DNA from: Symbiodinium sp. CCMP2592
Lineage: Eukaryota > Sar > Dinophyceae > Suessiales > Symbiodiniaceae
Direction: 5' to 3'
Assembly: GCA_905221615.1 (NCBI GenBank)
Contig: CAJNDT010000491.1
Coordinates: forward strand, 558,001-622,000
Length of the DNA: 64,000 nucleotides
The notes under the pieces are model-generated. The model made no database searches. It worked only from the letters and a program-made list of their open reading frames with translations, and was not told the DNA's origin. This document shows, one piece after another, positions 1,528 through 20,660 of this stretch; within the stretch, counting starts at the first letter, position 1; every line of letters begins with the position of its first letter. The translations under genes and the position numbers were made by a program.

Positions 1528-2028
1528 TCGCAAACTTGCCAAATACGCCTGTGACTGAGTGAGTGCGCAAAAGTCTTCAGTGTCCGAGTGGTGCACCAGC
1601 AGTGTCCAGACCAGTTTGTGCCAGTTTGTGCAGTTCTTTGCGCTTCCCCTTAGCCCTAAACCCCTAAACCAATAAATAAAAAATCAAAGCATGTAGTATT
1701 TAGAAAAATACGGGTTGCTATAAAACTATAGGTAAATCCCATACAAAATACAATAAAAATCACGAAAATATTCATATGATAGACCGCGAAAAAATAAAAT
1801 CAATAGTCCCCGACTTCGTCCGATGCACTTTTTAATAAATAAAGAAATTTTTCACTAAGAACATGACAGGTGGCCCTCTTCAACAACGGCTTTCACTTCA
1901 TCAACTACGAAGCACTGGTGCGTCCTCCCCCGCCGGGCTTTTTCGGTTTAGGCGTTCAGGGTTTTTCAGGGTTGTTGTGGTTTAGCGTTCAGGGTTGTTG
2001 TGGCTTGGTTTAGGTTAGGCGCGTTTGT

Positions 2029-2144
2029 AAAAAAGGAGCGCGCCCGATTATTTTTTATTGTTTTTTCTTTACGTCTTGTCGCGATTAGCATGCGAGCTCG
2101 TTCCTCGCTTCTTTTCCCTTCGTGTTAAAAAGCGCTCCTTTTTT
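2029..2144. repeat. 12-bp perfect inverted repeat in the left non-coding end
   Basis: AAAAAAGGAGCG at 2029-2040 is matched by its reverse complement CGCTCCTTTTTT at 2133-2144, leaving a 92-bp loop. It lies about 100 bp upstream of the polymerase start region. A role as origin, packaging signal or terminal remnant is possible but unproven. Confidence 0.6.
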
Positions 2145-2212
2145 CAATGATTTTATTTTTTGGGGCTGGTTTAGGTATTTGGTTCGCGCCCGCGCCCGCA
2201 CGCCCGCGCCCC

Positions 2213-2225
2213 TACTTAAGGAGAA
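2213..2225 (+). promoter_or_regulatory. Early-type promoter motif, variant copy before the first polymerase ATG
   Basis: TACTTAAGGAGAA matches 11 of 13 positions of the TACTTAAAGAAAA motif found before other viral genes. It begins 28 bp before the ATG at 2241. A better copy lies at 2277-2290, before the downstream ATG at 2307. Confidence 0.4.
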
Positions 2226-2276
2226 GCCACCTTAAAGGGTATGGAGAGCCCCAGCCCCGACACTGAGATAAAAAAC

Positions 2277-2290
2277 TACTTAAAAGAAAA
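2277..2290 (+). promoter_or_regulatory. Early-type promoter motif before the polymerase
   Basis: The sequence TACTTAAAAGAAAA is preceded by an A-run and followed at once by TCTA (2291-2294). It begins 30 bp before the ATG at 2307. The same motif lies at 18076-18088 and 19452-19464, in each case 36-38 bp before an ATG, and in weaker form at 6137-6148. It lies inside the open frame that starts at 2241, which argues that 2307 is the true start. Confidence 0.55.
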
Positions 2291-2306
2291 TCTACATTAT
2301 AATAAT

Positions 2307-5300
2307 ATGGATATTAATAGACAAAAATCTGTAATGAAATATGTTTTAAATAGTGATGTAGGTAAAATTAAAACAAATAAAGACGGTAAACAATTAAAAA
2401 AAGTTATTATAGATGATAAAGAATACCCATATAATCCATCAAAACCTTTTTCAGGAACACTTATAAATAAACTAGAACAAGTAGAAAAAACACCAGGTTA
2501 CAAACGTTTTAATATACTTGATAAAGCATCTAAGGGGATAGCAGTAAGAAAAGCTTTAAAACGATATTCTATATCAACATTCGGCACAAGAACTAACGTA
2601 TTTACAGCTTTAAAAGCTTATGCTAACACATATGCCATAACAAACATTCAAAAATTAGGCTATGCAGGATTAACTCACATATATTATCAAAAACCTAGGT
2701 TAAGAGAATATTTAAATAAAAACAAAAGTATGAAACTATTAGTTGATGTATCCGTTCAGTTTAAGCATTTAGAAGATGAAGATAAGGATTTTGTTGCTAG
2801 TATTCGTTCACGCCGTTATAATATATTAAACGAAGAAGACTTAAACAATGCAATAAATAATATGGCATCAGATATAGAAATAAGCGTAGAAAATGAAAAT
2901 TTTTATAGGTCTGATTTAAAGCTTCATAAAATAAACAAAATAACATTTCATTATGATAAATATGACCCGACAAGAGCGGGTAAATTTATTGAATTACCCA
3001 GATGGATTTCTTTAAAGAAGGCTTGTATTAACATTCAAAACAATGATGAACTTTGTTTCAAATATTGTGTTTTATGTAAATTTTTTGAAGTATATAAAAA
3101 AGACCATCCATGTAGAATATGTAAATACAAACCTTTTGAAAATGATAGTATAATTAAATGGGAAGGTGTTAATTTTCCAGCTTCAAATGAGGATATTGAT
3201 TATTTTGAACAAATTAATAATAGAAATATTTCAGTAAATGTTTATACAGTAGATAATCAGAAAATACGAGTAGATAGAGTTACCAAAATAACTCAACCTA
3301 TATGTCATGTTAACCTTCTTCGTCTTGATGATGATGAGGGAAGCCATTATGTTTTTATTAAAGACTATTCTAGACTTTTAGGAGGACAAACAAATAAAAA
3401 AACAAATAAACAATTTTATTGTCATTATTGTCAAAAAGGATTTACGAAAGAAAACTTATTGCATACTCATCTTACTAAGGGTTGTATGGCTAACGAGATT
3501 CAAAAAACAGAGATGCCCGAAAATAATGAAAAAATGTTCTTTAAAAACCATTATAAAAAGTTGAGATGTCCATATGTTATTTATGGTGATTTTGAGTGTT
3601 TAACAACCTTATCAAATGAAGGATTAAAGGGAACGTACGATTACGATAGTAATCCTATGCCCCTGAAAGGGGCGTACCAAAATCATAAACCATCAGGATT
3701 TATGATAAATGTTGTTAATTCTATCACAGATGAAGTTAAGCCTTATTTATACAGAGGTGAGGATTGTATGAATGTATTTTGTGATACAATGAATGAAATA
3801 AGGGATGATATTATGGAAAAAATGAATAACCCTTTACCCATGGAAGAATTAACAGATGAAGAAAAAAAGCAATTTAGAGAATGTAAAAAGTGTCATATTT
3901 GTGGAGGTTCATTTAACGATACGAAAGATAAAAAGAAGGTTCGCGACCACTGTCATTTTACTGGTAAATATAGAGGTTGTGCTCATAACAAATGTAATTT
4001 AGATTTTTCTTTCAGATACTTTAAAATACCCATATTCTTCCATAACCTTCAAAATTATGATGCTCATTTAATTATATCTAATCTTGATAAGTTGAATACT
4101 GAAAAAGACGATATAAATGTAATAGTGCAGAATAGTGAGAAATTTGTTACCTTTTCAATTAAACAAATTGAATTTAAAGATAGTTTTAGTTTCTTATCTT
4201 CATCGTTAGATAAGCTAGTTAAACTAACTAAATATGACGCCTCGCCAGAGGCTCGCGACGCACGCGAAAATAATGTAAAAAGAACTGACTGGACAAAGCA
4301 TTTTAAATATAGTAAGATGAGTGAATATGTGAAAGATGATTATGATTTAGGTTTACTAACGGATAAGGGTATTTACCCCTATGACTACATGAATGACTTT
4401 AACAAGTTCAATGAAACAGAACTACCAAGTAAAAAAGAATTTTATAGTCAGTTAGTTGAAGAAGATATTACAGATGAAGATTATACAAGGGCAACTCATA
4501 TATGGAAGCATTTTAACATTAAAAACTTAGGTGAATATCATGACTTGTATTTAAAAACTGATGTGCTGTTATTAACAGATGTTTTTGAAAATTTTAGAAC
4601 TCAATGTTTAAAAGATTATGATTTAGACCCTGCTCATTATTTTACATTACCTAATTTTGCTTGGGATGCTATGTTATTAAAAACTGGTATAACTTTAGAC
4701 TTAATATATAATGAGGATATGTATAAAATGGTTGAGAGAGGACTTCGTGGTGGTATGTGCCAAGTATCTAACAGAAAAGCAGAAGCCAATAATAAATATA
4801 TGAATGAATTATATGATGAAAGTAAGCCTAGCTCATATATAAATTATCTTGATGCTAATAACTTATATGGACTAGCGATGTGTCAAAAATTACCATATAA
4901 AGACCTTGAATTCATTGACTATAAAATGGAACTTAATGATATACTTGAATATGAAGACTTAGGAGTAGGTTATATTTTGGATGTTGATTTAGAATATCCT
5001 GATAACATACATGATTATCATAGTGACTACCCGCTAGCCCCTGAAATTATGAACGTAAGCGCTGATATGTTAAGTGCAACGCAGAAGAAAATATATAAAT
5101 CATATAACTATAATAAAGAACCAAAAGATGAGAAAACCAAAAAACTTATATTGAATGTTAATGATAAAGAGAACTATGTATTAAATATAAAGATATTAAA
5201 ATACTATTTACAACAAGGAATGAAACTAAAGAAGGTAAATAAAACAATTCGTTTTAAACAAAAAGCATGGTTGAAACCATGGATTGATTTTAACACTGAT

Positions 5301-6116
5301 AAAAGAAAACAAGCAACTAGCGACTTTGAGAAAGATATGTATAAATTAATGAATAATGCGGTATACGGAAAAACGATGGAAAATGTAAGGGAACACATTA
5401 ACTTTGAATTAGTTGATACGCCCGAACGTTTTCAAAAGGTAGTTAATGACCCTTGCTATAAATACAGACACATCATTCATGAAAACTTAGTAGGAGTTGA
5501 AAAGATAAAGCACACGGTAAAATTAAACAAACCTATATATGTAGGAGTTAGTATATTAGATTTAAGTAAGTTACATATGTATAAGTTTTATTATGATGTT
5601 TTAAAAGAGAAGTATAAAGATAACATTCGTTTAATATATACTGATACAGATAGTTTTGTAACACACATAAAAACTGATGATATATATGAAGATTTTAAGG
5701 ATATAAGTAAGCATATGGATTTTAGCGGTTATGATAAAGAACACAAATGTTATGACCCGATTAATAAAAAGGTTCTTGGTAAATTTAAGGATGAAGTAGA
5801 CGGAAAAATAATAACACACTTTATAGGATTAAAACCTAAAAGTTATTCATTCAAAGTTTATAAACAAGACAAAGAAGAAAAGAAATCAAAAGGTATTGTT
5901 AAACATAAAGTAAAGAAAGAATTAAATTTTGTTAAGTATTTAGAAACATTGAATAATAATGAATGTGATACTGTAACTTTTAACAGTATAAGAAGCAAAC
6001 AACATCAAATATATTCTATAAAACAGACTAAACAAGCTTTGTCTTCCTACGATAATAAGCGTTATTATTTAGATAGTGTAAGAAGTCTACCTTATGGACA
6101 TTATTCAATTAAATAA
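2307..6116 (+). CDS. polB: Protein-primed family B DNA polymerase (Polinton type)
   Basis: It would replicate the viral genome from a terminal protein. The N-terminal third has the Polinton-type block ending in LPRWISLKKACINIQN. A C2H2-like finger follows (nt about 3412-3486, CHYC...H...H). The exonuclease I motif DFE is at nt 3588-3596. Next comes a CxxC...DHCHFTGKYRG...HNKCN module like endonuclease VII zinc sites, then HNLQNYDAHLI (Exo II-like). Polymerase motif A is YLDANNLYG (nt about 4848), motif B KLMNNAVYGK (nt 5343-5372) and motif C YTDTDS (nt 5637-5654). All catalytic acidic residues are present and the frame is intact. The first ATG of the frame is 2241, giving 1291 residues. I prefer 2307 (1269 residues) because the promoter motif and TCTA lie between the two and the first 22 codons are partly GC-rich, unlike the gene. 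Length fits Polinton polymerases. Confidence 0.93.
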   Translation: MDINRQKSVMKYVLNSDVGKIKTNKDGKQLKKVIIDDKEYPYNPSKPFSGTLINKLEQVEKTPGYKRFNILDKASKGIAVRKALKRYSISTFGTRTNVFTALKAYANTYAITNIQKLGYAGLTHIYYQKPRLREYLNKNKSMKLLVDVSVQFKHLEDEDKDFVASIRSRRYNILNEEDLNNAINNMASDIEISVENENFYRSDLKLHKINKITFHYDKYDPTRAGKFIELPRWISLKKACINIQNNDELCFKYCVLCKFFEVYKKDHPCRICKYKPFENDSIIKWEGVNFPASNEDIDYFEQINNRNISVNVYTVDNQKIRVDRVTKITQPICHVNLLRLDDDEGSHYVFIKDYSRLLGGQTNKKTNKQFYCHYCQKGFTKENLLHTHLTKGCMANEIQKTEMPENNEKMFFKNHYKKLRCPYVIYGDFECLTTLSNEGLKGTYDYDSNPMPLKGAYQNHKPSGFMINVVNSITDEVKPYLYRGEDCMNVFCDTMNEIRDDIMEKMNNPLPMEELTDEEKKQFRECKKCHICGGSFNDTKDKKKVRDHCHFTGKYRGCAHNKCNLDFSFRYFKIPIFFHNLQNYDAHLIISNLDKLNTEKDDINVIVQNSEKFVTFSIKQIEFKDSFSFLSSSLDKLVKLTKYDASPEARDARENNVKRTDWTKHFKYSKMSEYVKDDYDLGLLTDKGIYPYDYMNDFNKFNETELPSKKEFYSQLVEEDITDEDYTRATHIWKHFNIKNLGEYHDLYLKTDVLLLTDVFENFRTQCLKDYDLDPAHYFTLPNFAWDAMLLKTGITLDLIYNEDMYKMVERGLRGGMCQVSNRKAEANNKYMNELYDESKPSSYINYLDANNLYGLAMCQKLPYKDLEFIDYKMELNDILEYEDLGVGYILDVDLEYPDNIHDYHSDYPLAPEIMNVSADMLSATQKKIYKSYNYNKEPKDEKTKKLILNVNDKENYVLNIKILKYYLQQGMKLKKVNKTIRFKQKAWLKPWIDFNTDKRKQATSDFEKDMYKLMNNAVYGKTMENVREHINFELVDTPERFQKVVNDPCYKYRHIIHENLVGVEKIKHTVKLNKPIYVGVSILDLSKLHMYKFYYDVLKEKYKDNIRLIYTDTDSFVTHIKTDDIYEDFKDISKHMDFSGYDKEHKCYDPINKKVLGKFKDEVDGKIITHFIGLKPKSYSFKVYKQDKEEKKSKGIVKHKVKKELNFVKYLETLNNNECDTVTFNSIRSKQHQIYSIKQTKQALSSYDNKRYYLDSVRSLPYGHYSIK

Positions 6117-6136
6117 TACACTTTAGAATAAAAAGA

Positions 6137-6148
6137 TATTTAAAGAAA
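6137..6148 (+). promoter_or_regulatory. Early-type promoter motif before the first GIY-YIG gene
   Basis: TATTTAAAGAAA starts 40 bp before the ATG at 6177 and shares the TTAAAGAAA core with the motifs at 2277, 18076 and 19452. The spacing agrees with those genes. Confidence 0.4.
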
Positions 6149-6176
6149 TATTATGTTTTATAGGGTATAAATAAGT

Positions 6177-6482
6177 ATGAATAGGTATGAAAATGCTAAA
6201 ATCTATGAAATAGTAGATGTTGGATATAACAAATGCTATATAGGTAGCACTTGTGAGTTGTTATGTAAAAGAATGGAAAGACATAGAAATGATTATTACA
6301 ATTATTTAAGGAACAATTTAAATACTTGTACAAAATCAGTTGAATTATTTAAAGAGTATGGTAAAGATAATTTGAAAATTAAGCTAATTGAATACTACCC
6401 ATGTAAAAGCAAGGAAGAATTATTACAAAGAGAAGGTTATTGGATTAAAAATTTGGATTGTATAAACAGATGTATGGATTAA
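6177..6482 (+). CDS. GIY-YIG family endonuclease, small
   Basis: This 101-residue protein is a single GIY-YIG domain. The two-tyrosine core appears as KIYEIVDVGYNKCYIGST (residues about 8-25), followed by a conserved arginine region (CKRMERHRND) and the catalytic Glu segment near EGYWIKNL. Such nucleases nick DNA and are common free-standing genes in PLVs, large DNA viruses and phages, often acting as homing enzymes or in recombination. It follows the polymerase by 60 bp in the same direction and may be expressed with it. A second GIY-YIG gene lies at 10819-11343. Confidence 0.85.
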   Translation: MNRYENAKIYEIVDVGYNKCYIGSTCELLCKRMERHRNDYYNYLRNNLNTCTKSVELFKEYGKDNLKIKLIEYYPCKSKEELLQREGYWIKNLDCINRCMD

Positions 6483-6509
6483 TTTTAATAGAAATACTAT
6501 TAAAATAAA

Positions 6510-6779
6510 TCAAAAATATTTGTCGTTTTCTTTCTTTATCTTATAATACTCAAGAGTGCTACTTTTAGGATATAAGATTTCATTATTGTTCAACTTAGCT
6601 AGATAAGTATTTCGTTTATTCTGATATGAAACATCTTTATCAGGTGATGGTTTATTATATACTTTTGTTTTTTCTATTAATCTGTCTTCTATCTCTCCTA
6701 ATTTATGAAAAATTTGTTGCATTCCTTCTACAAGTTCTTCTCTTAAACATACCATGTTCAAATCTACTTTTTGTTCCAT
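6510..6779 (-). CDS. Small coiled-coil hypothetical viral protein
   Basis: This 89-residue protein has a helical N-terminal half (REELVEGMQQIFHKLGEIEDRLIEK) that could form a short coiled coil, then a basic tail rich in Asn, Tyr and Lys. I do not recognise a family. It ends the minus-strand block 6510-7516 and converges on the GIY-YIG gene. TCTA reads on the minus strand at 6790-6793, 11-14 bp before the ATG. Base composition matches the viral island, and the frame is free of overlap with better candidates. Confidence 0.55.
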   Translation of the reverse strand: MEQKVDLNMVCLREELVEGMQQIFHKLGEIEDRLIEKTKVYNKPSPDKDVSYQNKRNTYLAKLNNNEILYPKSSTLEYYKIKKENDKYF

Positions 6780-6816
6780 ATAAAAGTTTTAGATTAAAAT
6801 TTTTATATTAAAATTT

Positions 6817-7125
6817 TTATATATTATTTTTAATTTTCAAATTTTTAAATCTTTTGTCAGTATCTCTTATGGATGCTTCTATCGTTGGTTTATTCCATAA
6901 TATATTTTTTGCCCACATACCAGCAGTTTCATAATCCTTCCAGTCTTGATTAACTTTATGTCTCGCTATGTATCTTTGTTTTCTTTCTTCATCCTTGTGC
7001 TTTGTAAAATCACTATAACTTTTAGCTCCAAATGAAACAGTTTTAGTCTTTCCTTCTTTATCAGTTATCACTGCATCATATTTTTTTCCTTTAGAACTAG
7101 ATTTTTGTATAACAACTTCAGTCAT
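6817..7125 (-). CDS. DUF5754-like conserved viral protein
   Basis: This 102-residue basic protein has the pattern I associate with DUF5754, a family known from phycodnaviruses and relatives. It shows VSFGAKSYSDFTKHKDEERK (about 31-50), a following RYIARHKVNQDW, a TAGMWAKNILWNKPT block, and a final Ile-Arg-Asp segment. Function is unknown; small size and positive charge suggest nucleic-acid or capsid association, which is inference. It lies one base from the upstream gene at 7127-7516 and probably shares its transcript. Minus-strand TCTA lies at 7138-7141, just before the ATG. Confidence 0.75.
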   Translation of the reverse strand: MTEVVIQKSSSKGKKYDAVITDKEGKTKTVSFGAKSYSDFTKHKDEERKQRYIARHKVNQDWKDYETAGMWAKNILWNKPTIEASIRDTDKRFKNLKIKNNI

Positions 7126-7126
7126 A

Positions 7127-7516
7127 TTAATCTACTTTAGATTTTAACATACTGATAATATCTATATCTTTCTTAATTTCATCAATATCTGTTTCTAACT
7201 TTTCAATTCTCTCTTCTAGTTCTTCAGGTGTTACTTTTGTTGAACCCCAACCGGTATCACAAATTTCAAGCGAACCTAATTGTTTGTTTTCTTCAGGTTT
7301 AAAAATGTCATCTGGTGATTGATGACGACCATTACCGCCAAACTTCATATTTTTCTTATCTATGATTGTGGTTGTTGTTGTTTTATCAGTTTCTTGTATA
7401 GTTTTTGTTTCCTTTCGGTATAACTGTTTTTTACATCTGCATGGAATGCATGATATGCCACGTGAATTTATTCTAAAACCCTTTTCTTTGTTACTGTCTT
7501 CTGTTGCATCACTCAT
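7127..7516 (-). CDS. Hypothetical viral protein with Cys-rich N-terminus and coiled coil
   Basis: The 129-residue product has a short cysteine cluster near residues 23-28 (CIPCRCKK), a Thr-rich stretch, and a C-terminal heptad-like helix (TPEELEERIEKLETDIDEIKKD, about residues 94-115). No family is recognised. The N-terminal cluster could bind metal but is incomplete for a classic finger. It is the first gene of the minus-strand trio and is divergent from the packaging ATPase across a 250-bp gap. No TCTA precedes it. Confidence 0.6.
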   Translation of the reverse strand: MSDATEDSNKEKGFRINSRGISCIPCRCKKQLYRKETKTIQETDKTTTTTIIDKKNMKFGGNGRHQSPDDIFKPEENKQLGSLEICDTGWGSTKVTPEELEERIEKLETDIDEIKKDIDIISMLKSKVD

Positions 7517-7706
7517 ATTATTAACAATTATATTAAAATGGTTAATAATATGTTTTTAAACTTGCTACTATAGGGGTTCTCTTCTCCATAACAAACGAAT
7601 TCTTTAATTCATGTTGTAATGTCTTACCCTGTTCTACACGTATGGTATTTGTAAGTTTTTACAACACTTTAGAATTATTAAGGGGACGCAGTAAGGGGAT
7701 TTTATG

Positions 7707-7756
7707 GATAATATTACTCGTAATATTATCAATAATTAAATAGAAATTAATTTCTA
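7707..7756. promoter_or_regulatory. Two perfect palindromes and TCTA motif before the packaging ATPase
   Basis: GATAATATTAC (7707-7717) and its reverse complement (7720-7730) are separated by two bases. A 16-bp palindrome TAGAAATTAATTTCTA occupies 7741-7756, and its last four bases are the TCTA that starts 14 bp before the ATG at 7767. The rest of the 7517-7766 gap shows nothing else recognisable. Confidence 0.55.
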
Positions 7757-7766
7757 AATATTATTA

Positions 7767-8558
7767 ATGAATACTCCATTAATAAAGCCTATTAATGCTA
7801 AAGAATATGAATTCAAACAATCTAAATATGAAGTAGCACCGAGACTACCTTTTAGTCAAATAATTGTAGGTCCTAGTGGTTCAGGAAAAGGTATATTATT
7901 ACAATCAATGATATTAGATATTTACCGTGATGTTTTTGTTAGAATATACATTTGGTCACCTTCAATTTCAGTTGATAGTAATTGGTCACCAGTTAAAAAA
8001 TATATTCAAGATAATTTAAAGGTTGATACAGAAAAGGAAAAATGCTTCTTTGATGATTACATACCAGAAGAACTAGAAGCTGTAATAAATAGACAACACA
8101 AGGTAATAGAATATCAGAAAAAGAATGACCATAATAAACTACATTCAATACTGATAATTGTTGATGATTTTGCAGACAGTAAAGCTTTTTCTAGAAACTC
8201 ACCATTATTAAATCAGTTGTATGTTAGAGGTAGACATAATGCAATAAATATTATAACATCAACACAGAAGTTTAATGCTTTATCTCCAATTATTCGTGTA
8301 AATAGCCGTCAGTTATTCTTTTTTAGATTGAGGAACTACAAGGAAATAGAGACAATGGTTGAAGAATTAAGCGCGGTATTGATTAAAAAATCAAGTGTGG
8401 CAGATACTAAAAATCTTGCAGAAGCAAAGAAATTATTATTAGAAGTCTATAATATAGCAACAGAAGAACCATACAGTTTTTTATTCATTAACTTAATGAA
8501 GGGTGATGTTAATGATATGTTTTATAAACGGTTTGATGCTAAATTAGTAATTGATTAA
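7767..8558 (+). CDS. DNA packaging ATPase (FtsK/HerA superfamily, A32-like)
   Basis: It would pump the viral genome into the capsid. The Walker A motif GPSGSGKG is at residues 35-42. Walker B (ILIIVDDFAD) is at about 128-137, and a conserved Gln follows in the sensor-like IITSTQKF (162-169). The total of 263 residues and the short N-terminus before the P-loop fit PLV and virophage ATPases. The start at 7767 is supported by TCTA at 7753-7756 in AT-rich DNA. The gene converges with the fibre gene, with only one base between the two stop codons. Confidence 0.92.
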   Translation: MNTPLIKPINAKEYEFKQSKYEVAPRLPFSQIIVGPSGSGKGILLQSMILDIYRDVFVRIYIWSPSISVDSNWSPVKKYIQDNLKVDTEKEKCFFDDYIPEELEAVINRQHKVIEYQKKNDHNKLHSILIIVDDFADSKAFSRNSPLLNQLYVRGRHNAINIITSTQKFNALSPIIRVNSRQLFFFRLRNYKEIETMVEELSAVLIKKSSVADTKNLAEAKKLLLEVYNIATEEPYSFLFINLMKGDVNDMFYKRFDAKLVID

Positions 8559-8559
8559 A

Positions 8560-10779: not shown

Positions 10780-10782
10780 TAG

Positions 10783-11343: not shown

Positions 11344-11351
11344 ATATTACT

Positions 11352-11381: not shown

Positions 11382-11399
11382 AATAAATTTTCAATGCAC

Positions 11400-12828: not shown

Positions 12829-12876
12829 CTGTATATATTCAAGACTAGATAATTAATATTTTCATAATATATTTAA

Positions 12877-13068: not shown

Positions 13069-13098
13069 TATTAATTAATATTATTTAGAAAACTTTAA

Positions 13099-13211
13099 TT
13101 AAACTGTTAGTTAAATCAATGAAACTGATTTAATCAAGAGTTTTAACTTTCGGTTAAAACTGTTAATTACATTTCTAAAACTTTATCAAGAGTTTAACTT
13201 TCAGTTAAACT
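13099..13211 (-). terminator. Cluster of three hairpins and repeated TTAAACTGTT after the lipase gene
   Basis: The stems are 13111-13118/13126-13133 (8 bp), 13139-13147/13153-13161 (9 bp) and 13191-13198/13204-13211 (8 bp). The last loop contains the TGA stop (13201-13203) of the lipase gene. ATCAAGAGTTT(T)AAC...ACTGTT is repeated at a spacing of about 52 bp. Confidence 0.55.
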
Positions 13212-13842
13212 GTTCCATAAATTCATCTTTTGTTATTGGTAAATTACCTGGTTTATTATTAACGTTTCCTATATCTTGATATGAATGATTTTGTAAAGGG
13301 TTTAAAGTTCCTTTGTTTAATGTTATACTACCTTTATCAAACATACTAACAACGTCGCCGGCTTTTCTTATTCTTAAATTTGTGCCTGTATCTTCTGGTC
13401 TTTGACTTGAAATAAAAGGCGAGCCATAACTTCTACTTCTAAAAATATTTCCATAGTCATTATTTATTTGTTGTCCTACCGCTGAGCCTAGACTATGACT
13501 AATAATATCAGTAATTCCTGTTAGTTTTTTACCATCAACCTCTATAGTTCCATCTTTAATAAATTTATCAACATCTTTGTATCTTTTCGTTTGTTGTGTC
13601 TGATACAACGGTAGTTTTAAATCATCATATACATCTCTACCGCTTTTTGTTCCTGCTATGTATAAAATAGAACCATTTTGATAAATTCCTTCTGGATTTT
13701 CATAAGCTAGTCTTAAACCTTGAGTATCAGTTAAAAATGTTTCAGTTCCTGCTAATTCTTCTCTAATTCCATCAGTTATTTTATTCCTTGTATTTGGTGC
13801 TTCGTATAATATTCCCTCGTTTTTTCTTTTATGTTTATACAT
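13201..13842 (-). CDS. Class 3 lipase-like alpha/beta hydrolase
   Basis: The 213-residue protein has the nucleophile elbow SHSLGSA at residues 115-121 (Ser117), preceded by LYIAGTKSGRDVYDDLKLPL, which corresponds to the oxyanion and entry strands of fungal-type lipases. A later SYGSPFIS block, an Asp in KAGDVVSMFD (Asp163 or Asp169) and His186 in LQNHSYQD complete a plausible Ser-Asp-His triad. There is no signal peptide. PLVs often carry such a gene, presumably to open or remodel membranes during entry or exit; that role is inference. It is divergent from the penton gene across 39 bp. Confidence 0.82.
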   Translation of the reverse strand: MYKHKRKNEGILYEAPNTRNKITDGIREELAGTETFLTDTQGLRLAYENPEGIYQNGSILYIAGTKSGRDVYDDLKLPLYQTQQTKRYKDVDKFIKDGTIEVDGKKLTGITDIISHSLGSAVGQQINNDYGNIFRSRSYGSPFISSQRPEDTGTNLRIRKAGDVVSMFDKGSITLNKGTLNPLQNHSYQDIGNVNNKPGNLPITKDEFMEQFN

Positions 13843-13881
13843 ATAATAAACTTATAATTTAATTTTCTATGTTAATTAATA
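13843..13881. promoter_or_regulatory. Shared 39-bp promoter gap between lipase and penton genes
   Basis: The gap is almost entirely A/T. On the plus strand it has TCTA at 13866-13869, 16 bp before the penton ATG at 13882. No TCTA is seen on the minus strand toward the lipase. Confidence 0.4.
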
Positions 13882-14718
13882 ATGATGAAATTTAAAAAGG
13901 TATATATTGATAGCACTTATAAAGTTAATGGCACTTCATCTGATTTCATAATAGACTTACCTGAAACAGTGCAGTTAGAAGAAAATGTATTATGTCAAAT
14001 ACATGAAGTAAGTATTCCACATTCATGGTATTCAATAAACAACACGAATAACAATTTATATTTTAGACATCAAGTATTACCACCTGCTAATATCGCTGGC
14101 GTTTCTTATCGTAAAATACCAATTCCTGAAGGTAATTATACAGCATCTGAATTAACAACTGAATTAGAAACACAATTAAATAACTATTTTGATACAGTTG
14201 ATAGACCTAACACATATACAGTGAGATATAATGCAACAACTAATAAAATTAGAATTGCTGTTAATTATGCTACTGTTATTTTTATTGTTTTAACTGATGG
14301 AGAAGTAGCACCATTCGTTGAATCGTTTTTAGATGACGTTGATGTTAGTAATCTAAGTTCTGTTAATCGCGTAATGGGTAATTTAACACCTGCAAAAGAT
14401 GCGTATACTAATGTTGTTCCTTACATAACTAATTTTATTGATTTAGTCCCCTTCAAGAACTTATATTTACAATGTAATGAAATTAGTAACTTCAATCAAA
14501 TGACTATAGCGGGTAATTCAAGTATCATTAAAAAGATTAATGTAACAGTTCCTTATCTTGGTGTTATTAATGACAATGAGTTAAGTAGCGTTGATTATAT
14601 TGATGTGAGCGGTAAAATACTACGCCGTTTGAATTTTAGACTTACAAATAATTTAAATCAGGTAGTAAATTTAAACGGTGTTGATACCTCATTCACTTTA
14701 ACATTTTTTAGGGGTTAA
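13882..14718 (+). CDS. Minor capsid protein (penton-like, single jelly roll)
   Basis: It would occupy the fivefold vertices. The 278-residue protein begins with KKVYIDSTYKVNGTSSDFII and continues LPETVQLEENVLCQIHEVSIPHSWYSI (key residues 26-52), the signature N-terminus of PLV minor capsid proteins. A helix-strand unit (PEGNYTASELTTELETQLN) follows, also typical. The C-terminus is beta-rich and ends in TFFRG. An ATG pair (13882, 13885) offers two starts; the first fits TCTA at 13866. The frame is intact and next to the capsid block, in the opposite direction. Confidence 0.88.
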   Translation: MMKFKKVYIDSTYKVNGTSSDFIIDLPETVQLEENVLCQIHEVSIPHSWYSINNTNNNLYFRHQVLPPANIAGVSYRKIPIPEGNYTASELTTELETQLNNYFDTVDRPNTYTVRYNATTNKIRIAVNYATVIFIVLTDGEVAPFVESFLDDVDVSNLSSVNRVMGNLTPAKDAYTNVVPYITNFIDLVPFKNLYLQCNEISNFNQMTIAGNSSIIKKINVTVPYLGVINDNELSSVDYIDVSGKILRRLNFRLTNNLNQVVNLNGVDTSFTLTFFRG

Positions 14719-14741
14719 TTTTCTAAATTTTATCTATATTA

Positions 14742-14766
14742 TTTCTATTTACATAAAAAATAGAAA
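14742..14766 (+). terminator. 9-bp hairpin after the penton gene
   Basis: TTTCTATTT (14742-14750) pairs with AAATAGAAA (14758-14766) over a 7-base loop, 24 bp past the penton stop. The left arm also contains one of three TCTA copies (14722, 14733, 14744) before the next gene. Confidence 0.45.
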
Positions 14767-14784
14767 AAATATAGAATATATTAT

Positions 14785-15375
14785 ATGAGTGATATTAATG
14801 ATACAGTTAATGAAGAAATAAAAGAAGCTGAGCAAAGTAAGGGCGAAACCAAAACTGAAGAAATTAAAGAAACAGTTAAGGAAGAACTAAAGCAAGAAAC
14901 ACCAAAAGAAGAACCACCAAAAGAAGAAACACCAAAAGAAGAACCACCAAAGGAAGAAGAAGAGTTTAAAAACAAAACTGACAGAATGAAAAATAAAAAA
15001 GTCAAATGTGAAGGATGTCAAGCTGAGATGACACTGAAAACATTAAGATATTCTCACAAATGTAATGGAAAAACAGAAGATAAACCAATTAAACCAAAAC
15101 CTAAAACAAGAGCTGTAACTGTTAAACCTATTGAAAACAAAGTAATAAAAACTGTAGCACCTACAAGAGTTAAAGAAGTAGTTAGTCAATCAGAACACGA
15201 ACCTACTGAAGTTAAGACTAAAGAAAAACCCGTAAGAATGGAAGAACCCGAACAACCACCACCAAGGGCATTAACTACACGAGAATTATTAGAAGCTTCA
15301 TATAGGGAAATAAGAAGAGCAAAACAACAAGAACAAACAGAAAAAATAGCAAGATTTAAAACTAGCATGTTTTAA
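14785..15375 (+). CDS. Hypothetical viral protein with Glu/Pro/Lys repeats and mini zinc finger
   Basis: The 196-residue protein has an N-terminal tract of alternating KEE/PPKEE/TPKEE units (about residues 33-58). A short finger CEGCQAEMTLKTLRYSHKC follows (about 76-94), then a basic Pro/Thr/Lys linker and a helical C-terminus (TTRELLEASYREIRRAKQQEQ). The finger resembles those at 10819-11343 and 18114-18473. No family is known to me. Its position after the penton gene suggests a virion or assembly role, which is inference. The antisense Ser-rich frame over the repeat is an artefact. Confidence 0.65.
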   Translation: MSDINDTVNEEIKEAEQSKGETKTEEIKETVKEELKQETPKEEPPKEETPKEEPPKEEEEFKNKTDRMKNKKVKCEGCQAEMTLKTLRYSHKCNGKTEDKPIKPKPKTRAVTVKPIENKVIKTVAPTRVKEVVSQSEHEPTEVKTKEKPVRMEEPEQPPPRALTTRELLEASYREIRRAKQQEQTEKIARFKTSMF

Positions 15376-15412
15376 TTATGAATAATTATTTTTATCTAAT
15401 ATTATTAATAAT

Positions 15413-15732
15413 ATGAGTATGTTTAAGAGTAAACCAGAGTTCAAGCGTATGCCTATGGTAGAACAGACGTACGATTTAGAAGATACTATTGGAGTAGCTA
15501 GTCGTAAGAAAGCTATTGAAGATATGAAGTTAAGAATTGAAGAAGCAGAAACAGAGGTAAAAATATTAGACTACGTAACGAATGGTTACAACATCAGAAG
15601 AAATCATTATATCAGGGAGAATTAGATGAAATTAACAGACAGTTAGAGCGTCCTATGATGCCAGTAAGAACAAAAGAAGAGCTAGAGAAGAAACAAAAAG
15701 AATTAAAAGATATAATGGCAGAAATAAATTAA
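15413..15732 (+). pseudogene. Small coiled-coil viral protein with a frame break
   Basis: The first frame (15413-15625, 70 residues) encodes MFKSKPEFKRMPMVEQTYDLED and then a heptad-like helix (EDMKLRIEEAETEVKILDYV). Near 15580 the coding signal moves to another phase, which continues as a long charged helix with ELDEINRQLERP and EELEKKQKELKDIMAEIN, and ends at a TAA (15730-15732). The joint length would be about 105 residues. One indel explains it. TCTA at 15395-15398 precedes the ATG by 15 bp. The family is unknown; a structural scaffold is possible. Confidence 0.55.
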
Positions 15733-15753
15733 AATCTAATATAAAATATAAAA

Positions 15754-16134
15754 ATGATAAAAACATTAAAATCTGAGTTAAAATTACGTCCAACCTATGA
15801 TGAAATGATAGGAATGGTTGAAAGTCAAGGAGACCCCAACAGACCATCAATTGAACAAGTAATAGACAGGAAAGCAACATTATTTAGAAATAATCAGTTC
15901 GGTAGTCAATTTGATAATATTGATTTTCTAGGATTGAAGAAGCAAGAAGAAGATAGAGCGAAGGATAACTTAAGACAAGCACAGTTAAAAAACGCAGGAA
16001 TACAGCAAGGAACATCAACAGGATTAATGTCAATTAATACAAGTGGTTTTCAAACACCTGCTGAAGTTTATGAAGATGTAATGTTAAGACCAGAACCAAC
16101 ACAACAAGAATTAGATGAATTTAAAAAAATTTGA
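15754..16134 (+). CDS. Hypothetical viral structural-type protein, N-terminal part
   Basis: This 126-residue frame begins KTLKSELKLRPTYDEMIGMVESQG. The LxLRPTYDE motif recurs at the start of the protein at 17246-18067. The frame ends at a TGA straight after a run of seven A (16123-16129). With six A it would pass into the frame of 16115-17227, and the flanking residues (ELDEFKK / FEEFKQQ) run on naturally, so the two frames are probably one gene of about 490 residues. TCTA at 15735-15738 lies 16 bp before the ATG. Confidence 0.6.
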   Translation: MIKTLKSELKLRPTYDEMIGMVESQGDPNRPSIEQVIDRKATLFRNNQFGSQFDNIDFLGLKKQEEDRAKDNLRQAQLKNAGIQQGTSTGLMSINTSGFQTPAEVYEDVMLRPEPTQQELDEFKKI

Positions 16135-17227
16135 AGAGTTTAAACAACAAAAGCAAGAAGAAGAGAAACGAGCATTAGATATAATCAGGGCCTCAATGAT
16201 AGGTGATACTGAAAGATATAGAGAACAAGTTAGAAATCAACAGTTTGAAATTAGTCAAATGGCTAAAAATGATTTAAGTGATGTTCATAGTCAAGTTTTA
16301 CCGGCTGGTGTTCCAGTTCATTCAATGGATGTTCCAGTTAAAAGTAATCAAGGATACCCCCCATCATTACCGGCACCACCACAACAACAACCTATACAAG
16401 AAGAAGAAACTGACGATACACAACAAATAATGAAAATTTTTGATGATATGGAAATACAATCATCTGTCAAGGCAGGTATTAAATTTGATTTAAACAAAAT
16501 GAACTTAAATGATTGGTCTACAATTGACCCAAGTATTATGAAAAGAGATACATTAATGACTATGTTTAAACTAGCTGATAAAATTGGAAAATTAAATGAA
16601 AAACAACAAGAGCAGTTTAATAGAATAGAAGAAAAAAATAAATCATCTGATGCAGATACACCAGAACGTAAAAAAGCAATGGACGATGCAAGGGAGTTAT
16701 TCATAAACGCTTTTCATAATGAAAGTGTAGAAGAAGAAGACGAACTAACAGCATTAGAACAAAAAGTAGTATTTACAGATGGTTTTGACCCTGATGAAGT
16801 ATTCAATGATGATAGTATAAATTATAGAGGATTAATGTTTCAATTACATGTTAGAGATTTATTAACTACAGAAACTATAGAATTAGTAAGAAAATTTCCA
16901 TCAGACGAAAAAAGGAAACGGTATTTAGTAGCAATTATGGAGGCATATAAAAATGAGGATGAGTGGAATGCTGATTTTAACAGTGAAAAACTGAGCCGTA
17001 AAATTAAAGAGTTTAAAAAAATACGACAACGGCTAAAATCAAAAGTTGTTGAACCGTCGGCGGGTTCATCATCTTCATCAAGTGGAGTAGGACAATTACT
17101 ACCTTCACAACCATCATCATCATCAACACCTTTAAGAGACATAGCAGTAGCTGGAGCAAAAGCGGGAGTTGAAACTTTAGCAAAAGCTGGAGCAACGGCT
17201 TTAGCAAAATCATTTTTACCAGTATAA
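16115..17227 (+). CDS. Hypothetical viral protein, C-terminal part, with Gly/Ala-rich tail
   Basis: The 370-residue frame continues 15754-16134 past an A7 run. It is helical and charged (EEFKQQKQEEEKRALDII), with a Pro/Gln stretch (about 80-95), a long alpha-helical middle containing DPSIMKRDTLMTMFKLADKIG, a basic segment (REIKEFKK-like) and Ser/Pro-rich linker. The last 25 residues (GAKAGVETLAKAGATALAKSF) form an amphipathic Gly/Ala helix, as seen in small membrane-active or capsid-lining peptides. No homologue is recognised. Placed after penton and coiled-coil genes, it may be a minor virion or scaffold protein. Confidence 0.6.
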   Translation: MNLKKFEEFKQQKQEEEKRALDIIRASMIGDTERYREQVRNQQFEISQMAKNDLSDVHSQVLPAGVPVHSMDVPVKSNQGYPPSLPAPPQQQPIQEEETDDTQQIMKIFDDMEIQSSVKAGIKFDLNKMNLNDWSTIDPSIMKRDTLMTMFKLADKIGKLNEKQQEQFNRIEEKNKSSDADTPERKKAMDDARELFINAFHNESVEEEDELTALEQKVVFTDGFDPDEVFNDDSINYRGLMFQLHVRDLLTTETIELVRKFPSDEKRKRYLVAIMEAYKNEDEWNADFNSEKLSRKIKEFKKIRQRLKSKVVEPSAGSSSSSSGVGQLLPSQPSSSSTPLRDIAVAGAKAGVETLAKAGATALAKSFLPV

Positions 17228-17245
17228 AATATATATGTTTAATAT

Positions 17246-18067
17246 ATGCTACGCTTAAAGCCAACATTTGAACAAATTGAAAGGGAAGCAAGAACACGAA
17301 GATTAAAAGTATTACCGGAGAGGGAAAGAAGAACACAACAAGGAATATTATTAAATGATGTTAATTTTGATGATTTTGATTTAGATAAATATAATAAAAA
17401 GACAATAATACTTGATGATAATCCAGATAAAGGAACACAAACAGATAGATTTAATGAAACACCAAGTATAGCAGAAAGTATGAAAACACCAGAAGAAGAA
17501 GTTAAACAGATACAAACCGATGAAAGCGATGACACTATAAAAAGTAATGAGAAAGAACAAGAACGAGACAGAGAAAAAACTCAAAATAAATCAGTAATGA
17601 GGAGAGTTTATGATGCTATGTTTGGAGAAGATGAGTTTGAAGAAGAAAGAGAAGAAATGAGAAATAGGAGAGAGCAAATAGAAGAAGAAATAACAAGTGA
17701 ACCATCTATAGAGAAACAACAAAGTGAAGATAGCGATAATAGTTTACCTATGAATGTTAAGAAATCTTATGAGCCTTCATCATCTTCTTCAAGTTCTATA
17801 AGAAGTTCAAACAGAAGTGTTTTAATGCCACTTGAACAAGAAGCATTAAGTGATTATATTAATTCTTCGCCTGTTGAAACATTGCAAAGTTCCATTCCTA
17901 GTGATAGAACTATTGAATATGTAGATGACGCTTCGGAGAAGTCCTCGCGTGCTGAACGCGAAGCAACACCGCCTATTAGTGTTGTTAGTTCTCGCAGAAG
18001 TCAAGAAACAATAGAATACATTAGAAGCAGAAGTTCCAGAGGAAGCGCTAGGTCAATAAGAAGTTAA
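17246..18067 (+). CDS. Hypothetical viral protein, Ser/Arg-rich C-terminus
   Basis: The 273-residue protein starts MLRLKPTFEQIEREAR, echoing the N-terminus of the gene at 15754. The middle is very acidic with charged helices (EDEFEEEREEMRNRREQIEEE). A run of about seven Ser (near 180) and an SR-rich tail (RSRSSRGSARSIRS) follow, suggesting phosphorylation or nucleic-acid contact. No domain is recognised. It is 18 bp downstream of the previous gene and probably co-expressed; no clear TCTA is seen in the short gap. Confidence 0.6.
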   Translation: MLRLKPTFEQIEREARTRRLKVLPERERRTQQGILLNDVNFDDFDLDKYNKKTIILDDNPDKGTQTDRFNETPSIAESMKTPEEEVKQIQTDESDDTIKSNEKEQERDREKTQNKSVMRRVYDAMFGEDEFEEEREEMRNRREQIEEEITSEPSIEKQQSEDSDNSLPMNVKKSYEPSSSSSSSIRSSNRSVLMPLEQEALSDYINSSPVETLQSSIPSDRTIEYVDDASEKSSRAEREATPPISVVSSRRSQETIEYIRSRSSRGSARSIRS

Positions 18068-18075
18068 AAAAAACA

Positions 18076-18088
18076 TACTTAAAGAAAA
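18076..18088 (+). promoter_or_regulatory. Early-type promoter motif before the zinc-finger gene
   Basis: TACTTAAAGAAAA is identical to the copy at 19452-19464. It starts 38 bp before the ATG at 18114 and lies in non-coding DNA, which shows that the motif is conserved as DNA and not as peptide. Confidence 0.6.
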
Positions 18089-18113
18089 CCTAGCATTAAT
18101 ATATAAGATAGTT

Positions 18114-18473
18114 ATGACATGCTTAGTAATGGACAACGGAAAGAAAATAGACATTGATGATGACTTATTTGATGTATTATGGAACTCAATAGAAGAACCA
18201 GAAGAAGAAACCAACAAGGAAGAGAAAAGAAAGCGAAATAAAAAGTTATCAAATGATAAGCATAATAAGCTTAATAAAGAACGAGGATATTTTAAAGAAT
18301 ATTATAAAAGCAATGACAGATGTTATGAGTGTGAAAAATGTGGAAGAATGATAAGTAGCGGAACCAATAAATCAAAGCATCAAAAAACAAAGAGATGTAT
18401 AAGAAATTATGAAGATAAGTTAGAAAAAGAAATAACGGATAAAATAGTAAACAAAGTCTTATTATGGAATTGA
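18114..18473 (+). CDS. Zinc-finger protein, hypothetical
   Basis: The 119-residue charged protein has one finger, CYECEKCGRMISSGTNKSKHQKTKRC (cysteines within residues 64-89; key pattern CEKCG...IS.GT...KHQ...C). It is flanked by a Lys/Arg-rich segment and a C-terminal helix. The finger closely matches the C-terminal module of the GIY-YIG protein at 10819-11343, so the gene may be a shed regulatory or DNA-binding relative of it. No nuclease motif is present. Expression with the polymerase is suggested by the shared promoter motif. Function is not known. Confidence 0.7.
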   Translation: MTCLVMDNGKKIDIDDDLFDVLWNSIEEPEEETNKEEKRKRNKKLSNDKHNKLNKERGYFKEYYKSNDRCYECEKCGRMISSGTNKSKHQKTKRCIRNYEDKLEKEITDKIVNKVLLWN

Positions 18474-18497
18474 TATTATTTAATTTCTAAATAATAT
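18473..18497 (+). terminator. 10-bp hairpin between the zinc-finger gene and the integrase
   Basis: ATATTATTTA (18473-18482) pairs exactly with 18488-18497 around a 5-base loop. It begins at the last base of the stop codon. TCTA (18486-18489) used by the integrase lies inside loop and right arm, so end and start signals overlap. Confidence 0.55.
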
Positions 18498-18503
18498 TAA
18501 TTG

Positions 18504-19439
18504 ATGAGTAAAGAAGCAAAATTATCTGAGTTATATTTTGATATTGAGCGAGGCTTCGGTAGTGCTAAGAGTTTATATGATGATGCAATAAAAGCAGGTA
18601 TGGTAATCACACAAGAAGAAGTTAAAGAATGGTTAAAAAATCAATCAGTAAAACAAAGAAGCGGTTATAAACAATATAATAGTTTTTCTGCTCCTTTTGC
18701 TCGTGCCATTTATTCTGTTGATTTGATGAATATGATTAGTCTAATGAAAGATACAAACACATATAAAAAAGAATATCCATTATATGGTTTTGTTTGTATT
18801 GATAATTTTAGTAAAAAATGTCATGTTGTAGTTATGAAAGAGAAAGATGGACCAACTGTATTAAATGCCTTAAAGGAATGTTTCAAGGTAATGGGTTATC
18901 CTCAATCAGTTTATAGTGATGATGAAGGGGCACTTAATGATAAAATATTACAAACATATTTGAAAGATAACGGAATTATACATAATGTCACACTAACACA
19001 TGCTAACGTAGCCGAGAGAATGATAAGAACATTAAAGAAGATGATAAGTGATAGATTACAAGTTCATAAACAAGGAGCTTGGACAATAATGTTAAAACCT
19101 GTCTTAGATAAATATAATAAACAAATGGTTCACTCAACGACTGGTTTAGTTCCTAATGAAGCACATAAAGACGATAACCACATAACAGTAAAGTCTAACT
19201 CAGTATTGAAAGAAAAATATTTAAGAAATTATCCTAATATCAGTGAAGGCGATACTGTAAAAATCTATACAAAAAGCGGTGGTAATTATACAAGTAGAAA
19301 AGAAACAAGGAGCCGGTGGAGCGAACAAACTTATCAAGTTAAAAGTGTTGAATGCGGTATGCAACTTAATAAATATTATGTTCTTGAAGGATTACCTAAA
19401 CGGTATTTACGCCATGAATTATTGTTAATTAATAAATAA
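18504..19439 (+). CDS. Retroviral-type integrase (rve, Polinton class)
   Basis: It would insert the viral DNA into host chromosomes. The catalytic triad is visible: Asp73 in YSVDLMNM, Asp139 in VYSDDEGAL and Glu171 in THANVAERMIRTLKK, with 31 residues between the last two. After the core comes an HST.GLVPNEA segment typical of Polinton and Ty3-type integrases. The C-terminus has an SH3/chromo-like fold pattern (EGDTVKIYTKSGGNY... WSEQTYQVKSV...YYVLEGLPKRYLRHELL). No N-terminal HHCC finger is obvious. The start is ATG 18504; an in-frame TTG at 18501 is less likely. TCTA lies at 18486-18489. Confidence 0.92.
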   Translation: MSKEAKLSELYFDIERGFGSAKSLYDDAIKAGMVITQEEVKEWLKNQSVKQRSGYKQYNSFSAPFARAIYSVDLMNMISLMKDTNTYKKEYPLYGFVCIDNFSKKCHVVVMKEKDGPTVLNALKECFKVMGYPQSVYSDDEGALNDKILQTYLKDNGIIHNVTLTHANVAERMIRTLKKMISDRLQVHKQGAWTIMLKPVLDKYNKQMVHSTTGLVPNEAHKDDNHITVKSNSVLKEKYLRNYPNISEGDTVKIYTKSGGNYTSRKETRSRWSEQTYQVKSVECGMQLNKYYVLEGLPKRYLRHELLLINK

Positions 19440-19451
19440 ATGGTAAAAAAC

Positions 19452-19464
19452 TACTTAAAGAAAA
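19452..19464 (+). promoter_or_regulatory. Early-type promoter motif before the last viral gene
   Basis: TACTTAAAGAAAA, preceded by a run of A, starts 36 bp before ATG 19488. It lies within the open frame that could start at 19440, where it would encode NYLKKN; the same DNA encodes NYLKEN in the polymerase frame. Confidence 0.6.
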
Positions 19465-19487
19465 ATCGCCCTAGAATAGTAGGGAAA

Positions 19488-20087
19488 ATGGAAACATTCA
19501 ACTTCAATTTTAAGTGTAAATATTGTATCAGTTACAAGAGCAGAAGAAATGAAATATTAAATAATTTATTTGATGGTAATGTTACTAATAATATCTTGTC
19601 TTTTACAACTTGTAACTTTTGTCATAAAATGCATGAGTATGAGAAGGAATACTCAACTAAACCATTAGAAACAATAGAGCACAAACAAATACATTGTATA
19701 TTAAATCATTTTGACAATGGATACATGAAACTAACAAATTTGAAAGATAAAAAGAGTTATTTGAAAGACATAATAGATAAATCAAACTGTAGGTTCAAAC
19801 CATTATTTACCAAGTTCTTGAATGAAACAAAACATATTAAAATGATTGAAAAATATAAAGAATTTTGGTTATTAGACTATGACATTAAGCATCTTAGAGT
19901 ATCTTATGATTTTAAAAATAGTGTTTATAAATATAGAAACCAATATGAACAAACAATAAGCATTATTATTCTCATAATTTTCTATCAATATTTTGAAAAA
20001 CAAGTAGGTATTTATAGAAACTATTTTAATATTGATGCCTTATGGAGTTATTCATATAATATCTTTAAAGAAGAAGATGAAAGTTAA
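19488..20087 (+). CDS. Cysteine-rich hypothetical viral protein
   Basis: The product has two CxxC pairs near the N-terminus, FKCKYCISY and TTCNFCHKMH, spaced as in a zinc ribbon, then a helical Lys/Tyr/Phe-rich body without motifs. I do not recognise a family. An upstream in-frame ATG at 19440 would add 16 residues, but the promoter motif lies between the two, so 19488 is preferred (199 residues). It is the last viral gene, overlapping nothing, immediately after the integrase. Very AT-rich codon use matches the other viral genes. Confidence 0.65.
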   Translation: METFNFNFKCKYCISYKSRRNEILNNLFDGNVTNNILSFTTCNFCHKMHEYEKEYSTKPLETIEHKQIHCILNHFDNGYMKLTNLKDKKSYLKDIIDKSNCRFKPLFTKFLNETKHIKMIEKYKEFWLLDYDIKHLRVSYDFKNSVYKYRNQYEQTISIIILIIFYQYFEKQVGIYRNYFNIDALWSYSYNIFKEEDES

Positions 20088-20660
20088 AGCCATTCATAAT
20101 AATATTAATATAAAATATTAATATAAATGTAGACAAAAGCCACCACAGAAACCTAGACATAATATTATATAGAATATTATACATAATACCCCGACTTAAA
20201 CCGACTAAGGAAGGAAACTAATGCCTAAGATTATGATGTAAGATAGCATAAAATATTGGGATAGGGTAATAGATAAAACTTATACAAAACCTTATGATAA
20301 TAAACCTTCATAAGTTGTAGGTAATTAGAATAATTCAAAAGTTACCCCAAAACTACATAAAGATTTTCTATTAGGATACAACAAAAACGATAACGAATGA
20401 GATAGACAAGTTAAAAAACAGTATAGGGGCCTATATAGGGGGTATGGGGATAGCCCTAGAACCAACCTTTTACTAATTTTTCCCCCTCCCCCCCCCTTGA
20501 CCGCTTCCGCCACATCACGACATATAACGATGAATACGAGCAAACGCAAAACCAGCAACACCTAGACAAGAAGACTCGTTAACTATCATATAATGTACAT
20601 ATAAAAGACAACGAGCAAATCCAACAAACTCTAAACGCTGAAAGCACGGTATACCGAAAC
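20088..20660. other. Right non-coding end of the viral island
   Basis: No gene is visible. A 10-bp inverted repeat lies at 20102-20111/20115-20124, just past the last gene, and may terminate it. CCCCGACTT...CCGA at 20189-20204 repeats, in the same orientation, 1808-1823 in the left flank. A C-run (about 20482-20497) marks the transition, after which the sequence becomes less AT-rich. No terminal inverted repeat could be fixed. Confidence 0.5.

Follow-up and report, generated by a model that had tools for sequence, protein, structure and literature searches.

Introduction

Polinton-like viruses (PLVs) residing in dinoflagellate genomes have been described repeatedly. Bellas 2023 (PMC10120064) reported Dino-group capsids together with 2,535 capsid genes in Polarella, Haro 2025 (PMC12721341) presented a representative S. 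kawagutii element of about 21 kb and a P. glacialis pPolB, Symbiodinium capsids appear in PMC7805220, and PLVs of Symbiodinium sp. strain CCMP2592 itself belong to the set published in PMC12220804. In this study, we analysed a 64,000-bp stretch of the CCMP2592 genome (C491:558001-622000, on contig C491; hereafter the window), which contains an AT-rich island. This island is very probably one copy of a multi-copy PLV of Symbiodinium sp. CCMP2592, present as a linear provirus of 21.1 kb with inverted repeats of about 350 bp. A preliminary description of the island had implied that such an element was new. The accessible portions of the above articles already contain dinoflagellate PLV capsids, pPolB, the S. 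kawagutii element and PLVs of CCMP2592, so that the element itself is not new, and by gene content it looks like an ordinary member of the PLVs.

The accessible portions of PMC12220804, PMC10120064 and PMC7805220 mention target duplications and give no target rule, and the main text of PMC10120064 does not contain the terms target site, integration site or insertion site. For PLVs with an rve integrase, 6-bp duplications are given in the accessible part of PMC12220804, together with one GAGGG case, in clusters that have tyrosine recombinases, which was dismissed there as spurious. Mavericks are enriched at dinoTAD borders in Breviolum, as stated in the accessible part of PMC11071213. Among the titles listed in the open-licence literature, none dealt with the targeting of G-runs by polintons or in dinoflagellates. 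The rule of integration into G/C runs presented here is apparently undescribed so far, and the same apparently holds for the left-end segments of the element, which vary from copy to copy, are mostly GC-rich and have shuffled domains. On balance, we favour the reading that this PLV lineage evolved a retroviral-type integrase complex homing to G:C homopolymer tracts (GGGN|RGGGG, with a 5-bp cut), possibly a safe harbour in the chromosomes of dinoflagellates, plus an interchangeable, host-like cargo cassette at one end that is swapped between families at a telomere-like junction.

Extent of the provirus

The GC content was 24-34% per kilobase from 2 to 21 kb of the window and, apart from exceptions at 53-59 kb, 46-61% in most of the kilobases that follow. 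The low-GC part also holds long open reading frames (ORFs), which bears out the AT-rich island with PLV genes as first described. Its edges had been placed at 1660 and 20640. Within the window, no long inverted repeat was found between these two proposed ends, the longest minus-strand match having 35 columns and 25 of the 87 inverted pairs being listed, and the search was therefore extended to the left of the window. A repeat-partner search across the organism's own genome gave an element span from window -648 to 20481, i.e. 21,130 bp, delimited by the following features.

C491:557352-557692 (window -648 to -308), minus strand: left terminal inverted repeat, partner of window 20130-20481, 96% identical
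1..20481, no strand: provirus body within the window, with its start at window -648 (C491:557352) and its end at 20481
20130..20481 (C491:578130-578481), plus strand: right terminal inverted repeat with the terminus CTAATTTTT, pairing with C491:557352-557692
20482..20486, no strand: right copy of the 5-bp target duplication CCCCC, inside a C-run

The two repeats differ by one mismatch and two gap openings. Both edges therefore had to be moved: the left inverted repeat occupies window -648 to -308, with 1655 being an internal junction, and the true right end is 20481. Since the left repeat lies outside the window, the ORF at 41-1360, first taken for a host gene in the left flank, lies inside the element. 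The integration of a PLV in a dinoflagellate genome was upheld by the core genes, the inverted repeats, the target duplications and the name of the strain. Just beyond the right end of the provirus, an AT-rich microsatellite (20870-21480) lengthens the apparent AT-rich island.

Integration sites and target duplications

The terminus motif occurred 57 times in the 1.1-Gb genome, compared with 0 occurrences of a reversed control pattern, indicating that these occurrences are not due to chance, and inverted repeats 19-21 kb apart were present in many contigs. We read 59 ends, comprising 56 of the 57 terminus-motif matches and three near-matches, of which 54 had distinct flanks; ends without the terminus motif (e.g. 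on C5007, C5165 and C4745) were left out. At 46 of the 54 distinct junctions, the five bases next to the element included C4 or G4, and at 28 they were pure C5 or G5. The C4/G4 count was 20/54 and 13/54 in the next two 5-base steps and 2-8/54 thereafter, against a background of 1.22% of the host 5-mers in the window and 10/236 in the same flanks 30-50 nt out.

Exact 5-bp target duplications were found in 17 of 22 inverted-repeat pairs, and a 6-bp match in only two of them. When the flanks were re-paired at random in 10,000 trials, none of the trials reached 17 exact duplications (mean 3.79, maximum 10). Ten of the 17 duplications were pure C5/G5, and the other seven were AGGGG (three times), AGGTG, CACCT, CCCCT and ACCCC. 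On the G-rich strand, the 17 sites followed the pattern GGGN|RGGGG, with G in 17/17 at positions -3, 2 and 3 and no preference at position 0; the G strand was picked by the duplication, so that positions 1-5 follow the pattern partly by construction, and position -3 is independent of this choice. The element was oriented either way on the G strand (8 to 9). A natural empty site was provided by the C2735 copy, which lies nested within an inverted repeat belonging to another copy. When its flanks were joined minus one AGGGG, they aligned with the window repeat over 353 columns at 85% identity with one gap, which was not at the junction. In a subfamily whose integrase is 72-74% identical, two right ends abut AGGGG and C11, respectively.

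Several points weigh against this rule. Five of the 22 pairs had no exact 5-bp duplication; the duplications of C1835, C3480, C483 and C5049 matched over 4 bp only, and C1543 showed no duplication match and inverted runs. Pure C5/G5 duplications could match by chance between neighbouring runs, for which the shuffle allows, and long runs of G or C are easily misassembled. For a third copy of the 72-74% subfamily (C900), no right end could be located, and direct reading of the G tract by the integrase is something we infer. For C1543, recombination or misassembly is likely, because the left flank of this copy is the same as the right flank of C1530. Copies on different contigs with one flank in common were seen for C1530/C1543 and for C1013/C5049, which points to recombination or misassembly.

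The G/C runs might be ends of the element, or an assembly artefact, instead of targets. They do stand at the exact ends, homopolymers are error-prone and the runs of C1543 are inverted; however, the flanking runs were direct, not inverted, in 21 of the 22 pairs, the duplications AGGTG, CACCT, AGGGG, CCCCT and ACCCC match on both sides, and the nested C2735 copy reveals what the target was before the insertion. We disfavour this explanation and regard it as scarcely credible.

The preference could also arise from chromatin access (e.g. structured G-tract DNA in dinoflagellate chromosomes) or from a tether to a host protein, and not from reading by the integrase, which we rate as a real possibility, somewhat short of probable. 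The preference reaches past the 5-bp duplication on both sides, and endogenous mavirus-like virophages, in the accessible part of PMC8547959, have no sequence-specific integration, both in keeping with this explanation. The base pattern is nevertheless sharply defined at set distances from the cut (G in all 17 sites at -3, 2 and 3, no preference at 0), which suits direct contact, although a tether combined with a weak integrase preference could yield the same sharp pattern. Under homing by the integrase complex, which we favour, the element's own rve integrase would make the insertion, 5-bp duplications being of the integrase type, and it would either read G-tract DNA directly or be tethered to it. 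A rule seen at dozens of junctions would offer an assayable integrase, help to explain where the elements are located in dinoflagellate genomes, and allow insertions to be called easily from reads.

Copies of the element in the genome

A search of the organism's own genome with the integrase gave 128 matches, 29 of them near full length at at least 90% identity, and 28 of these 29 had no inner stop. The pooled ratio of nonsynonymous to synonymous substitution (dN/dS) of the integrase was 0.091 over eight copies, these being the eight best integrase matches and hence the closest copies, which shows purifying selection on the integrase. The repeat pairs of nine of the 22 elements were compared, and these were 96-100% identical. 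Judged from these sequences, a functioning lineage appears to have given rise to the copies recently.

If the copies were instead dead fossils multiplied by genome duplication, the broken capsid frame of the window copy, the four flanks common to more than one end and the fragmentary state of some copies would be readily explained. The 54 distinct flanks among the 59 ends argue against this, as do the repeats, 96-100% identical in the nine copies compared, and the integrase dN/dS of 0.091 over eight copies. We therefore consider multiplication of dead copies very unlikely and retain the reading of an active element.

Individual copies showed further structures. The repeat pair of C5052:339183-366253 is 27.1 kb apart, compared with the usual 19-21 kb, which suggests an extra insertion. 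At the left end of the C502 copy (L030, C502:1068900-1071500), the 3' half of the integrase and the right repeat are present again as an inverted duplicate, so that its inverted repeats are longer than those in C491. Repeat fragments in the same orientation, spaced by about 2.7 kb, were seen at C4667:594032-599724 and C1559:327-3367, as would be expected from the tandem duplication of a truncated end. On the right flank of C1835 (L046), the copy directly adjoins a CCCTAAA telomere-like repeat.

Variable segments at the left end

The left end of the element, up to the internal junction, contains three features.

41..1360, plus strand: left-end cargo ORF, 481 aa in full from window -85; GC 0.49, GC content at third codon positions (GC3) 0.67; modular, with a stretch ending LRGGG
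1409..1528, no strand: 62-bp tandem repeat 3' of the cargo ORF, common to L010, L011, L012 and L020
1640..1672, no strand: telomere-like junction, CCTAAACCCCTAAACC from 1655, where the conserved core is joined to left segments that differ between copies

In many copies, the match to the window starts at 1654-1656, position 1655 being the internal junction. The cargo ORF found matches at five genomic places, which all lie on the PolB side of PLV copies; at the C668 and C539 places, the PLV copy was assigned without the inverted repeat itself being seen. The left segments, measured from the left repeat to 1655, had a GC content of 0.42-0.51 in 11 of 13 cases, with C202 at 0.34 and C3268 at 0.59, most of the 13 being only partly covered and C3268 not being shown to be a PLV copy; the core genes measured had 0.25-0.33. 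GC3 was 0.67 in the cargo, 0.14-0.30 in the core and 0.57 in a Copia-like ORF of the window. The cargo proteins of C491, C4973, C668 and C539 have the last ~150 residues in common and differ in their N-terminal parts, and in other copies the left-end ORFs are different ones whose DNA identity is a patchwork. Where the junction CCTAAACCCC recurs, it is preceded by other upstream sequence, and some of these occurrences are next to integrases that are only 37-39% identical. A divergent integrase family of 36-41% identity, with several dozen matches, is present in the same genome, and in some cases a 1655-type junction lies beside the integrase.

The cargo protein matched no Pfam family above the cut-off and had two database relatives, and its structural model was uninformative (mean predicted local distance difference test (pLDDT) 36.4). 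A ubiquitin-like domain ending in LRGG, read from the letters alone and supported by no tool, was rejected. Because its composition is host-like, the cargo would be a provirus-stage gene, acting for the provirus or the infected cell; a role against giant viruses or superinfection is speculation. The left-end cargo marks a place to seek genes that matter to the provirus in its host.

Gene content

Between the internal junction and the right repeat, the element carries the following genes, in addition to the capsid gene described below.

2241..6116, plus strand: family B DNA polymerase, 1291 aa; DNA_pol_B_2 PF03175 2.3e-10, above cut-off; exonuclease and polymerase motifs
6177..6482, plus strand: GIY-YIG nuclease; PF01541 1.7e-06
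6817..7125, minus strand: DUF5754 protein; PF19058 1.2e-19
7127..7516, minus strand: 129-aa protein, no named family
7767..8558, plus strand: A32-type DNA packaging ATPase; Pox_A32 PF04665 2.7e-10, above cut-off; P-loop
8560..10779, minus strand: fibre-like protein with a C-terminal S74 chaperone domain; Peptidase_S74 PF13884 7.4e-12
10819..11343, minus strand: second GIY-YIG-like protein; 37% identity to the first GIY-YIG ORF over 93 columns
13201..13842, minus strand: lipase-like protein; SHSLG...D...H pattern; 486 relatives
13882..14718, plus strand: possible penton or minor capsid protein; DUF5901 2.9e-05, sub-threshold
14785..18473, plus strand: five ORFs without an assigned family, of 196, 126, 370, 273 and 119 aa
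18504..19439, plus strand: rve (retroviral-type) integrase, 311 aa; PF00665 3e-09
19440..20087, plus strand: 215-aa protein with CxxC motifs

The Pfam profile scan covered 19 of the 21 element ORFs of at least 100 aa, the antisense ORFs 16348-16704 and 16840-17142 being outside it. The results supported the earlier naming of PolB, rve integrase, ATPase and S74 protein through matches to PF03175, PF00665, PF04665 and PF13884, respectively. GIY-YIG nucleases had also been named; the first (6177..6482) was confirmed by PF01541, and the second (10819..11343) resembles the first at 37% identity and has no Pfam GIY-YIG match. The naming of a lipase held for the conserved SHSLG...D...H pattern, and of the sequences compared (the window protein and 120 listed of the 486 relatives) 99.2% retained S117, 99.2% retained D163 and all retained H186. 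It gained no profile support, ORF 13201..13842 having no profile match. The penton candidate (13882..14718) had no relative in the PDB and only the sub-threshold DUF5901 match. Candidates for the D, D and E residues occur in that order in the integrase. We take these residues to be the D, D, E motif of the integrase, the motifs in 2241..6116 to be those of an exonuclease and a polymerase, the motif in 7767..8558 to be a P-loop and the SHSLG...D...H pattern to be a lipase motif.

No protease match was found in the 19 scanned ORFs, from which divergent or shorter proteases could escape, in agreement with the preliminary description, which had recognised none. Since the canonical Polintons (Polintoviricetes) are defined by a capsid maturation protease, the element was filed as a PLV on account of this missing match. 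The polymerase family and the inverted repeats suggest that PolB may carry out protein-primed replication. The lack of a protease is common among PLVs, and some groups have lipases, which are absent in cryptophyte PLVs, according to the accessible parts of PMC12220804 and PMC7805220; the DUF5754 protein is called Tlr6f in the former. Farther along the window, positions 41537-46732 hold a long Copia-type polyprotein ORF, read from the letters, with a 30-bp tandem repeat at 42130-42328. No spliced-leader motif was found within the window.

Capsid gene

The major capsid gene lies between the second GIY-YIG-like ORF and the lipase-like ORF, in two parts.

11400..11840, minus strand: major capsid gene, C-terminal part, other frame
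11773..12828, minus strand: major capsid gene, N-terminal part; 385 relatives

The capsid piece had 385 database relatives at E <= 0.001. To represent the capsid, we used 23 aligned sequences to model the intact relative P0001 and compared the model with solved structures. The 50 listed of 55 matches (E <= 0.001) were only virus capsid or scaffold entries, among them vaccinia D13, the Orf virus scaffold, PBCV-1, Melbournevirus, grouper iridovirus and Sputnik, the last at rank 43 among the matches of this weak model. We take the matched structures to be double-jelly-roll proteins, and the model, weak as it is, supports the double-jelly-roll major capsid protein that characterises the PLV/Maverick supergroup. 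A sequence search of the capsid piece against solved structures found no relative.

Three results weigh against this assignment or against an intact element. In the window copy, the capsid gene occupies two different frames (11773-12828 and 11400-11840) and is not intact as assembled; the P0001 model is weak, with a mean pLDDT of 50.6 and template modelling (TM) values of 0.2-0.3; and no relative was found among viral contigs with one capsid piece, a capsid alignment or PolB. As assembled, the window copy cannot make a full-length capsid protein. The capsid named in the preliminary description is thus supported by its 385 relatives and by the capsid-only structure matches of a weak model, with its frame broken in the window copy, and the element can no longer be called complete-looking.

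Genome-wide, the N-terminal capsid piece gave 116 scored matches from 465 candidates, 108 without an inner stop and 8 with one; the scoring favours good matches, and the window copy is counted among the 108, since its break falls where the piece ends. A transposon of the Maverick type that multiplies within the genome and never forms virions would account for the many copies in one genome and for the lack of a related contig in the viral collection. It is set against the 108 of 116 scored N-terminal matches without an inner stop and against the presence of a fibre and a packaging ATPase, and we consider it rather unlikely. In the PLV that we propose, the capsid, ATPase and fibre would make virions when the lineage is active.

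The relatives of the capsid (P0001), cargo (P0121) and lipase (P0123) are 98, 90 and 95% identical, respectively, and probably come from one contig. The cargo relative P0121 had no corresponding match in the CCMP2592 genome search and may thus come from another Symbiodinium genome.

Comparison with described systems

The window element has features of the PLV/Maverick supergroup: a double-jelly-roll major capsid protein, judged by the weak model of P0001, an A32-type ATPase, an organellar/viral-type family B polymerase, and an rve integrase together with inverted repeats and 5-bp duplications. The following comparisons are with the accessible parts of the articles cited. Mavericks/Polintons share with it PolB, the rve integrase, the ATPase, the capsid and the inverted repeats, and have duplications of 5-6 bp, as does mavirus (PMC8547959); unlike them, the window element has no protease match and shows strong G/C-run targeting. 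Endogenous mavirus-like virophages (PMC8547959) are likewise low-GC proviruses with inverted repeats in a protist host, but they have no sequence-specific integration and mostly 3-5 bp duplications.

OmPLV of Oxyrrhis marina (PMC12721341) resembles the window element as an endogenous dinoflagellate PLV of low GC content with an ATPase, a capsid and a GIY-YIG protein. It differs in having a tyrosine recombinase and a helicase-PolB fusion, and in having neither target duplications nor an rve integrase. In the PLV survey as a whole (PMC10120064, PMC12721341), elements are 15-30 kb long, with inverted repeats, pPolB or a primase-helicase, and an rve integrase or a tyrosine recombinase. The endogenous Dino PLVs/polintons agree with the window element in host group, double-jelly-roll capsid and pPolB, and their S. 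kawagutii representative is about 21 kb long (PMC10120064, PMC12721341). The accessible descriptions of Dino PLVs give neither a target-site preference nor an exchangeable left-end cargo, and both are features of the window element.

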